Assembly: GCA_949746915.1 (NCBI GenBank)
Contig: CATKEA010000109.1
Coordinates: 1-17,871, forward strand
Source of the DNA: an uncultured Bacilli bacterium
GTDB taxonomy: Bacteria > Bacillota_I > Bacilli_A > RF39 > UBA660
Direction of reading: 5' to 3'
DNA length: 17,871 bases
Below are positions 1,067-4,753 of the stretch, one piece after another. The translations under genes and the position numbers were made by a program. Positions within the stretch are counted from its first letter, which is position 1; each line of letters begins with the position of its first letter. The notes under the pieces were generated by a model that was given only the letters and a program-made list of their open reading frames with translations, searched no databases and had not been told where the DNA came from.

Positions 1067-1180
1067 TTATTTATTTAAAGCTTCAACTAATTCAGCTTTT
1101 TTCATTGTTGTATATCCTTCGATACCTTTTTCTTTAGCTTGTTCTTTTAATTCAGCAACTGTCATTTTTGAATAATCTAC
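1067..1180 (-). repeat. Direct repeat copy A: 3' end of rpsB encoding the Rho_N-like tail
   Basis: Aligned base for base with 2080-2193 (offset 1013), I count four mismatches over 114 bp, including the stop codon. Identity stops abruptly at the codons before VDYSKM and just past the stop codon. The frame is the same in both genes. Confidence 0.9.
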
Positions 1181-1987
1181 AACAGTTTCTTCTTTAGCTT
1201 CTTCAACAACCTCTTTTTTTACTTCTTCTTTTTTTGGCTCATCTTTTTCTTTTGCTTTTTTGTTTTGTTTATTTTTATCTTCTTCAGATACATAGTCAAT
1301 TACTTCATTTCCATTAACTTCAGCAATTGCATTTGTTAAAACTCCAATCATTAATTTTACTGATCTAACAGCATCATCATTTCCTGGAATAACATAATCA
1401 ACCATATCTGGGTCACAGTTAGTATCTACTACACCAAATACTGGAATTCCTAAAATTCTTGCTTCTTTAATAGCAATTTCTTCTTTACGAGGATCAACAA
1501 TAATTAATGCCTCAGGCATTTTTTTCATTTCACGAATACCACGAAGATATTTGTTTAATTTTTCATATTCTTTTTTAATGCTGATAACTTCTTTTTTAGG
1601 AAGTAATTCGAAAGTTCCTTCTTTTTCCATATTTTCGATTTCTTCAAGACGTTTAATACGTGATTTAATTGTTCTAAAGTTAGTTAATGTTCCACCTAAC
1701 CATCTTTCATTAACAAAATACATGTTTGTTCTAAGAGCACATTCTTCTGCTGCTTCTTGAGCTTGTTTCTTAGTTCCTACATATAAAACTTTTCCACCAT
1801 CTTCAGCTATTTTCTTTAAAGCATTGTATGCCTCTTCAATTTTTTTAACTGTTTTTTGTAAGTCGATAATATAAATATCATCACGAGTTGTGAAGATATA
1901 CTCCTTCATTTTTGGATTCCATCTTCTTTTTTGGTGTCCGAAATGTACACCAGCTTCTAATAAGTAATTCATTGAAACTACTGTCAT
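1067..1987 (-). CDS. rpsB: Ribosomal protein S2 with C-terminal Rho_N/SAP-like extension
   Basis: Small-subunit protein S2, which joins the 30S late and is needed for S1 or mRNA docking. The start [19 protein letters not shown] matches family N-termini closely, and AAGGAGA lies upstream of the ATG. Signatures include [28 protein letters not shown] and PEALIIVDP. The conserved core ends near residue 230 ([10 protein letters not shown]). It is followed by a Lys/Glu-rich linker (about 235-268) and a 37-residue module (270-306) starting [19 protein letters not shown] and ending in [11 protein letters not shown]. That pattern resembles the Rho N-terminal (Rho_N) or SAP helix-extended-loop-helix fold, often linked to nucleic acid binding. 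The same module ends rplT with one residue changed. Family S2 is usually 230-260 residues, so the tail is extra. What the tail does is unknown. Confidence 0.96.
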
Positions 1988-2015
1988 ATTAAATTCTCCT
2001 TTTCGTTATAACTTC

Positions 2016-2070
2016 TATTAGTTTCTAAAATATACCACCATTTGGCACTAGGTATATCAATCTACTAATA
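2016..2070 (-). promoter_or_regulatory. Nested hairpin RNA element in the rplT-rpsB gap
   Basis: The 92-bp gap between rplT and rpsB folds, on the minus strand, into two nested perfect 7-bp helices. The outer arms are TATTAGT (2064-2070) and ACTAATA (2016-2022). The inner arms are ATATACC (2051-2057) and GGTATAT (2030-2036). A 14-nt apical segment contains GCC-AAAT-GGT, which can form a further short stem. Internal loops of 6 and 7 nt separate the helices. Only a short T run follows, so it is not a strong terminator. It could be an rpsB leader (S2 feedback), a processing site or a transcript-stability element. I cannot tell from sequence whether it matches a known rpsB-leader family. Confidence 0.5.
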
Positions 2071-2079
2071 TGTCTATTT

Positions 2080-2193
2080 TTATTTATTTAAAGCTTCAAC
2101 TAGTTCAGCTTTTTTCATTGTTGTGTATCCTTCGATACCTTTTTCTTTAGCATGTTCTTTTAACTCAGCAACTGTCATTTTTGAATAATCTAC
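2080..2193 (-). repeat. Direct repeat copy B: 3' end of rplT encoding the Rho_N-like tail
   Basis: Partner of the repeat at 1067-1180. About 110 of 114 positions are identical and the reading frame is preserved, so the encoded 37-residue modules differ at one position (Q in S2, H in L20). Confidence 0.9.
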
Positions 2194-2646
2194 TGCTTCG
2201 TTTTTAGCTTCTTTTTTTTCTTCTGTTTTTGGACTTTTTTCTTTTGCTACTGTTTTTGTTTCTTTTACAACTTCGCTTTTTGCAATTTTTCCTGCTTTAC
2301 CATCTTTGCTAACTTTAACAAGTTCACTAAATGCTTTAGGATCATTGATTGCTATTTCAGCTAACATTTTTCTATTGATTTCAACACCAGCTTTATTTAA
2401 ACCTTCGATGAAACGAGAATAACTGATTTCATTTTCACGACATGCTGCATTGATTCTTGTGATCCATAACTTTCTGAAATCTCTCTTCTTTTGTTTTCTA
2501 TCTCTATATGCATATTGTCCTGAATGCATTAATTGTTCTTTTGCAGTTTTGTATAATCTATGTTTACTTCCAAAGTATCCTTTAGCTTGTTTTAAAACTT
2601 TTTTATGACGAGCTTTAGTTACAGCTCCATTTTTAACTCTTGGCAT
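2080..2646 (-). CDS. rplT: Ribosomal protein L20 with C-terminal Rho_N/SAP-like extension
   Basis: Large-subunit assembly protein L20, which binds 23S rRNA early and in Firmicutes represses its own operon through a leader RNA. The N-terminal MPRVKNG, the motif KQAKGYFG and the conserved [22 protein letters not shown] region are all present. The normal L20 domain covers residues 1 to about 118 (family length about 115-120). A 33-residue charged linker follows, then a 37-residue module (152-188) that is almost identical to the S2 tail and resembles Rho_N/SAP. The ATG is preceded by GAAGGAGGA. It lies 24 bp after rpmI and 92 bp before rpsB. The doubled length is the oddity; its effect on assembly or on leader binding is unknown. 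Confidence 0.96.
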
Positions 2647-3418: not shown

Positions 3419-3430
3419 CACATAAATGAC

Positions 3431-3462
3431 AAAAAGGTAGACTCTAATGAATCCACCTTTTT
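3431..3462 (-). terminator. Leader attenuator of the infC operon
   Basis: An 11-bp hairpin with one G-U pair extends by a few pairs around the loop ATTA and ends in five T residues on the minus strand. It lies 13 nt before the infC Shine-Dalgarno, so it works as a regulated terminator inside the leader. Confidence 0.85.
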
Positions 3463-3568
3463 GTTGCGCACAAATATAGATAAATGGAAATTATCTACGA
3501 GAGGCATACTTAACCCAAAGCCACGTTAGGCAATCAGGTGGATTATTAATCGCTTTCCTTTTTAATTA
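3431..3568 (-). ncRNA. L20-type leader with attenuator before infC-rpmI-rplT
   Basis: The transcript between the promoter and infC ends in a clear attenuator. Arms at plus positions 3431-3441 and 3452-3462 (AAAAAGGTGGA/TCTACCTTTTT on the minus strand, one G-U pair) are followed by a T run. An upstream segment on the minus strand, AATCCACCT (3536-3544), is perfectly complementary to AGGTGGATT (3450-3458) in the terminator's first arm, giving a 9-bp long-range antiterminator. This position and architecture match the known Firmicutes L20 leader, where L20 binding favours termination. I did not check the detailed L20-binding motif. It may also control rpsB and tsf if they lack their own promoter. 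Confidence 0.82.
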
Positions 3569-3575
3569 CGATTTA

Positions 3576-3604
3576 ATTATACATATATATGTATATATTG
3601 TCAA
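3576..3604 (-). promoter_or_regulatory. Consensus sigma-A promoter of the infC operon
   Basis: Minus strand: TTGACA (3599-3604), 17-bp spacer, TATAAT (3576-3581). Both hexamers match the housekeeping consensus perfectly at ideal spacing. Transcription should begin near 3568-3570, giving a leader of about 160 nt. The -35 box lies just past the stop codon of the upstream kinase-fold gene. Confidence 0.93.
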
Positions 3605-4380: not shown

Positions 4381-4753
4381 TTACTTAGTATATTGTTTTA
4401 CTTTTCCACCATCAACTTCATAGATATTATTACTATCGATTGACTTTTCGATATCAACTTTCATATGGGTAGCAATAATAATAAGTTTTCCCCTGGCTTT
4501 TTCTTCAAGAAGAATTTTTCTTATTTTCCTAGCTGTTTCGTTTTCAACACCATTAAATGGTTCATCTAATATTATCAAGTCAGGGTCTTCCATGAGTACT
4601 TGAATAATTCCATGTTTTTGCTTTGTTCTTGTCCACCTTCACCCTTTTGAGCTTCTTTACTTATCCAACTACTTGATAGTATTTGTATCTTAATTCCTTG
4701 AATAGCAAAATATATTGAGGCATTCACTCCATCATATTTAAGCAGTTTGCTAC
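4381..4753 (-). pseudogene. Decayed ABC transporter ATPase remnant
   Basis: The last 70 codons (4381-4593) encode the C-terminal half of an ABC ATPase nucleotide-binding domain. EDPDLIILDEPFNG is the Walker B and D-loop, LIIIATHM is the H-loop switch, and YEVDGGKV is a typical end. Just upstream, in another frame, lies EGGQEQ, a weak ABC signature (LSGGQ-like), and in the Walker B frame KHGIIQVLMEDPDL precedes it. The two join only with a frameshift near 4616-4622. The Walker A half is missing. A further open stretch back to about 4753 shows no ABC similarity that I recognise. No transporter permease adjoins it. I call it a truncated, frameshifted remnant; the 70-residue frame has no credible ribosome binding site. 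Confidence 0.75.

Follow-up and report, generated by a model that had tools for sequence, protein, structure and literature searches.

A Rho_N-type tail on ribosomal proteins uS2 and bL20 of an uncultured Bacilli lineage, with signs of gene conversion between the two copies

Introduction

The window analysed here is a stretch of 17,871 nucleotides (nt) that makes up the entire contig CATKEA010000109.1 of an uncultured Bacilli bacterium (GTDB lineage Bacteria; Bacillota_I; Bacilli_A; RF39; UBA660; assembly GCA_949746915.1, 1.42 Mb and 86.8% complete), and it carries a minus-strand run of genes for IF3, bL35, bL20, uS2 and EF-Ts. The question raised by this locus is why uS2 of the small ribosomal subunit and bL20 of the large subunit should end in almost the same 37 residues. 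Ribosomal proteins count as conservative; in this case a small exchangeable tail, one per subunit, appears to be copied between genes, and it is also found on other ribosomal proteins in another phylum. What is this module, how widely is it kept, what has made its two copies so alike, and what might it do? The tail is a Rho_N module that is found throughout the host's family, and the near-identity of the two copies in the window fits episodic gene conversion. With about even confidence, the tails are taken to be auxiliary arms for nucleic acid, most likely RNA.

One module on two proteins

The cores of both proteins are complete. That of uS2 scores 329.9 bits against PF00318 and 341.1 bits against TIGR01011 (equivalog cut-off 76.3), and that of bL20 scores 166.3 bits against PF00453 and 171.4 bits against TIGR01032 (equivalog cut-off 65.65). 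Each protein then runs through a Lys/Glu-rich linker into the 37-residue module, where the only difference is Q in uS2 against H in bL20, just as an earlier sequence-only reading of the window had described. The features are as follows.

1067-1987, minus strand: uS2 (rpsB), 306 residues, made up of core, linker and C-terminal Rho_N tail (PF00318 and PF07498, TIGR01011)
1070-1180, minus strand: Rho_N tail of uS2, residues 270-306 (PF07498, 37.7 bits; AlphaFold2 model)
1181-1309, minus strand: Lys/Glu-rich linker of uS2, residues 227-269, from the sequence; the 60 nt adjoining the module share 42% identity with the bL20 side
2080-2646, minus strand: bL20 (rplT), 188 residues, made up of core, linker and C-terminal Rho_N tail (PF00453 and PF07498, TIGR01032)
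2083-2193, minus strand: Rho_N tail of bL20, residues 152-188 (PF07498, 38.0 bits; the bL20 model has helices at 159-168 and 179-187)
2194-2301, minus strand: Lys-rich linker of bL20, residues 116-151 (model confidence, pLDDT, below 50 at residues 127-150)
1065-1180: direct repeat copy 1, uS2 end, 116 nt, 4 mismatches to copy 2
2078-2193: direct repeat copy 2, bL20 end, 116 nt, 4 mismatches to copy 1

The two copies of the repeat are 97% identical and take in the stop codon. The sequence-only reading had given the length as 114 bp with the same four mismatches, and had noted that the linkers differ, which they do. Identity drops to 42% in the 60 nt on the linker side and to 35% in the 60 nt downstream, so that the repeat ends at the module. 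It is more than a chance likeness, since the second-longest direct repeat among those shown for the window has only 43 nt at 72% identity and the same tails recur across the family. Assembly slip is an unlikely source because the bL20 protein cluster (P0002) is found on 15 contigs, two near-identical uS2 clusters are found on 3 and 6 contigs, and the arrangement recurs in G042, a second genome of the genus, whose two tails also resemble each other (93% DNA identity).

Identity and predicted fold of the module

Fundamental to the identification of the module is its match to Rho_N, where the scores listed above both exceed the gathering cut-off of 24.9 bits. The sequence-only reading had likened the module to Rho_N and SAP folds; the first half of this likeness stands, and the second falls short, as do matches to HeH. 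With SAP (PF02037) the uS2 and bL20 tails score 22.9 and 23.6 bits, below the cut-off of 23.9, and with HeH/LEM (PF12949) they score 23.1 and 24.7 bits, below the cut-off of 28.9. The structure prediction proposed in that reading gives a folded module. In an AlphaFold2 model built from an alignment of 40 tails, a helix (8-18), an extended loop and a second helix (28-36) are predicted with a mean predicted local distance difference test (pLDDT) score of 90.1, which is the helix-extended-helix fold of Rho. In a model of the whole bL20 protein (mean pLDDT 70) the linker residues 127-150 fall below 50 and are unstructured, with the two tail helices placed after them. A Lys-Lys pair is almost invariant among the tails.

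Among sequences of solved structures in the PDB, the tail profile matches N-terminal domains of Rho and a SAP construct of Ku70. The latter bears on the proposal that the tails, like SAP domains, bind DNA and thereby tie ribosomes to the nucleoid: the Ku70 construct 1jjr is the best whole-chain match of both tail profiles (E-value (E) 3.1e-13 and 4.6e-8), and SAP folds also match the model. The proposal is quite unlikely, however, as both tails lie just under the SAP cut-off and, when scored per stretch, Rho reaches 31.7 bits and 1jjr 25.9 bits. The fold comparison (VIA) places Rho chains first, followed by FAN1 and SAP domains; CDNF and others rank lower. With the 37-residue tail model, Foldseek found nothing at E <= 0.001. 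Solved ribosomal proteins showed no chain with such a tail, the longest of the 48 L20 sequences listed having at most 129 residues; the bL21 chain of 7jil (147 residues) stops inside a linker-like stretch.

Distribution and history of the tail

How widely is such a tail kept? Among 145 genomes of the host's family, uS2 and bL20 were each located in 138, and tail ends were scored on a subset of 118 uS2 and 120 bL20, of which the uS2 of G065 and the bL20 of G002 were incomplete and were dropped. Called with a tail hidden Markov model built for this analysis (independent E-value (i-E) < 1e-3), the tail is present in 116/117 uS2 ends and in 99/119 bL20 ends. When the family was searched with the uS2 tail, 144 of the 145 genomes gave matches; the exception is G059, to which the one tailless uS2 among the 117 ends scored belongs. 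Of the 20 bL20 proteins without the tail, 19 carry a different Lys-rich extension, in most cases rich in Lys and Thr, and one carries none. The relatives neither lack the tails nor keep them solely as low-complexity ends, outcomes that the sequence-only reading had named as fatal to it; a folded Rho_N tail is found across the family. In G059 itself (loci L110 and L037), uS2 and bL20 were both seen to end in Lys/Thr-rich low-complexity tails with no Rho_N.

Might the tails be no more than neutral passengers, spread through recombination? Their absence from 20 of the 119 bL20 proteins and from both proteins of G059 would suit this explanation, but the near-universal retention on uS2, together with a folded module that has near-invariant positions, makes it improbable.

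The tail extends beyond the family. Of 295 genomes of the phylum searched for Rho_N, 92 gave matches, and 59 genomes from outside the family (bL20 located in 59, uS2 in 58) were chosen mostly for having such a match, so that counts from them are not frequencies. Among the ends scored (i-E < 0.01), 35/39 bL20 and 21/34 uS2 have the tail. It is found on bL20 in families f2, f5, f6, f8, f13, f19, f22 and f24, and on uS2 in f2, f5 and f8 only. A tree of 61 genomes, with an uncertain root and with host-family (f1) rows picked to contain every bL20 loss, requires 4 changes for the uS2 tail and 12 for the bL20 tail. From these change counts, and from its spread over eight families against three, the bL20 tail is the wider and perhaps the older of the two. 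Strict pairing of the tails was considered and rejected because they were lost separately in the 61-genome set, where the uS2 tail is kept without a bL20 tail in 19 genomes of the family and in 2 of another.

Gene conversion between the two tails

If the tails are not new, why are the two copies in the window so alike? A recent tail duplication between the two genes in the window's lineage, one of two origins offered by the sequence-only reading, would account for 97% DNA identity. It is barely credible given that both tails occur family-wide and in other families, and that the orthologous tails of the window genome and its sister G042 are 86% identical whereas the paralogous tails within the two genomes are 96% and 93% identical. 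The cores of the same two genomes are 91% (uS2) and 89% (bL20) identical. The other origin offered was gene conversion, and it is this that the near-identity of the window's tails appears to fit.

Both tails are present in 93 genomes, with the genes adjacent in 39 and separate in 54 (adjacency being read from search positions). In 10 of the 93 the uS2 and bL20 tails resemble one another more than either resembles any sampled ortholog, a result that depends on how densely close relatives are sampled. On the core tree the genomes with adjacent genes make up a single clade of 38 and, apart from it, G125; homogenised tails require 8 changes. Homogenised tails are found in 8/39 adjacent genomes versus 2/54 separate ones (Fisher p 0.015, relatedness ignored). 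A one-residue deletion provides a diagnostic mark, as it occurs in 11 bL20 tails, all in genomes where the genes are adjacent, and in 3 uS2 tails. Each of these 3 is matched by a deletion-bearing bL20 in its own genome, which points to copying from bL20 to uS2. Both signatures of a converting pair are therefore seen, namely repeated cases of paralogs more similar than orthologs and a diagnostic change common to both paralogs. In the window the module marks the limits of the tract; in G042 and G136 the similarity continues in the linker, at 86% and 89% over 36 nt.

Several points weigh against this account, or at least against conversion as a general process. The core tree is a quick one with 37 of its 94 inner branches weak, and the Fisher test ignores kinship; at least 7 of the adjacent cases and all their controls but one belong to one clade. 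The overall similarity of tails within a genome is not higher in adjacent pairs than in separate ones (Mann-Whitney p 0.91), and once the ten homogenised genomes are set aside the two tails of a genome show no more amino-acid similarity than is found with neighbouring genomes (83 genomes, Wilcoxon p 0.78). Without the ten there is a small nucleotide excess (all 83, p 0.055; 52 separate, 1.4 points, p 0.014; 31 adjacent, p 0.84); the ten were chosen by outcome, so that the codon comparison is partly circular. Since discrete cases stand out without a general excess in adjacent pairs and with at most a small nucleotide excess outside the ten, conversion between the tails is best regarded as episodic.

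Other carriers of the tail, Rho and S1

What other proteins carry the module? A Rho_N search of the window's incomplete assembly (E up to 1) gave three matches: uS2, bL20 and a frame of 672 residues. The third was considered as Rho itself and rejected, the protein being FtsH with its tail at G000:C149:8122-8223 (locus L003, one end cut). A tailed FtsH is confirmed with Pfam in one further genome of the family (L259), and three more frames (L260, L283 and L284) are of similar size. Elsewhere in the class the tail closes oligopeptide ATP-binding cassette (ABC) ATPases, L219 scoring over the Rho_N cut-off and L261 just under it (24.3 versus 24.9 bits). In other families of the class, Rho_N tails were also observed at the ends of uncharacterised proteins whose hydrophobic stretches were recognised by eye (L247, L258, L268, L269, L270, L278, L250, L251 and L273).

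As for Rho, none of the 145 family genomes reaches its curated cut-off of 509 bits, whereas 8 of the 14 control genomes pass it; in 10 genomes there are weak matches, at 40-62 bits. Frames with more than one S1 domain (E <= 1e-5) were found in none of the ten family genomes examined for them.

What the tails might do

The best explanation is that the uS2 and bL20 tails are auxiliary nucleic-acid arms, most likely for RNA, with occasional conversion between them, and confidence in it is evenly divided. The anatomy of the two proteins, the conservation of their tails and the conversion between them are shown by computation. RNA binding is the best inference because of the Rho_N identity, the near-invariant Lys-Lys pair and the replacement of the module by Lys-rich tails. 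On the 50S subunit bL20 adjoins bL21, and uS2 sits close to the mRNA exit and the bS1 site. Each tail would act as an auxiliary RNA arm, for mRNA on the 30S side and for rRNA or the nascent transcript on the 50S side, and the two would hold RNA loosely near the ribosome on their charged linkers. Gene conversion would occasionally copy one tail over the other, with either version working on either protein.

The main rival, which is itself rather unlikely, is that the tails serve for protein docking, bringing ribosomes together with RNA polymerase, membrane FtsH or transporters, and do not bind nucleic acid. It draws on the Rho_N tail of FtsH in the window's own assembly and on the tails of the ABC ATPases and of the proteins with hydrophobic stretches. 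Yet a single module shared by unrelated proteins would suit a generic ligand, nucleic acid for example, no less well, the bL20 tails are replaced by low-complexity Lys-rich ones, and outside the converted genomes the amino acids of both tails do not drift together. The sequence-only reading had proposed that one tail on each subunit serves a common partner. Each subunit is indeed tailed, but the idea of a common partner is weakened, as the tails are lost separately and, outside the ten homogenised genomes, the two tails of a genome are in amino acids no closer to each other than to the partner tails of neighbouring genomes.

Certain findings count against RNA arms. The net charge of the module is about zero by sequence, and the tails on FtsH, the ABC ATPases and membrane-looking proteins fit a protein- or membrane-linked role equally well. 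In G144, one of the 19 genomes counted above with a different bL20 extension, the tail match lies in a separate frame of 43 residues just behind the bL20 gene, probably a broken frame and not a replaced tail. A multi-S1 frame is present in both genomes of other families that were examined (G193 and G171), each of which has both tails.

A broader scenario, decidedly doubtful at present, is that a Rho-less lineage kept a Rho-type RNA module and moved it onto both ribosomal subunits and onto FtsH, so that a common low-affinity tail, exchangeable by conversion, would hold ribosomes, transcripts and membrane together; a similar arrangement on bL21 and bL27 in Bacteroidota would have arisen separately or by transfer. 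If the tail does hold mRNA or the nascent transcript, it would show how bacteria without Rho keep translation and RNA capture together, the multi-domain S1 protein not having been found in the ten family genomes.

Remaining features of the window

Two further observations concern the minus strand. The infC-rpmI-rplT leader (3423-3561) matches L20_leader weakly (18.5 bits, E 0.23, cut-off 58.7) and has a strong hairpin, and the folding z-score of 3420-3600 is -4.66; the leader is possibly a degenerate L20 autoregulatory attenuator. An Rfam scan at gathering thresholds gave no matches. At 4381-4593 a frame of 70 residues resembles the C-terminal part of an ABC ATPase and looks like a gene remnant.

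Comparison with known systems

Is a tail of this kind known elsewhere? It occurs on bL21 and on one bL27 in Bacteroidota, mostly Flavobacteriaceae. In a contig scan with the tail alignment, limited here to the best 80 of 483 confirmed stretches, 37 frames that bear the tail are from Bacteroidota, of which 36 contain a bL21 start and 1 a bL27 start; Pfam confirms two of the bL21 and the bL27, and the remaining frames were assigned by eye. Within the same 80 stretches these tails are like those of the window at up to 81% identity and follow a Lys/Ala-rich linker, but they sit on other ribosomal proteins and in another phylum. At eight Bacteroidota loci that were viewed, seven have the tail on bL21 beside a plain bL27, and in Crocinitomix (L348) the tail is on bL27 and bL21 is plain.

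Accessory domains on L20 and S2 are already known to curators, as NCBIfam holds both an L20 fusion and sunset variants of L20 and S2. The fusion, NF011109 / PRK14537 (L20/unknown domain fusion), likewise joins bL20 to an extra domain at the C-terminus. That unknown domain is probably the Rho_N module, because the model's far end is matched by the tails of uS2 (1.6e-6), bL21 (4.1e-6) and bL27 (5.2e-7). It differs in that the window's bL20 scores 179.5 bits, below the equivalog cut-off of 187, the domain is unnamed and uS2 is not covered. The sunset domain variants NF051450 (L20) and NF051451 (S2) are, by name, the same two proteins with a common added domain in other bacteria. Here too the window stands apart, with 144.5 bits against a cut-off of 375 for bL20 and 292.5 against 710 for uS2, and its matches end at model positions 176/219 and 278/382, respectively. 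None of the 14 control genomes passes the cut-off of the S2 sunset variant. A literature search, mostly without subscription papers, found nothing on the pair of uS2 and bL20 tails, on the Rho_N identity of the L20 domain or on their concerted evolution. C-terminal extensions are described for L22, L23 and L29 of Mycoplasma pneumoniae (PMC10568206).

The remaining comparisons are with the domains themselves. The C-terminal SAP domain of Ku70 is similar in sequence and likewise C-terminal, and differs in that the tails miss the SAP cut-off. The N-terminal domain of Rho (PF07498) is like the tails in both sequence and fold, but here the module has a C-terminal position on ribosomal proteins, in genomes with no Rho over the cut-off.
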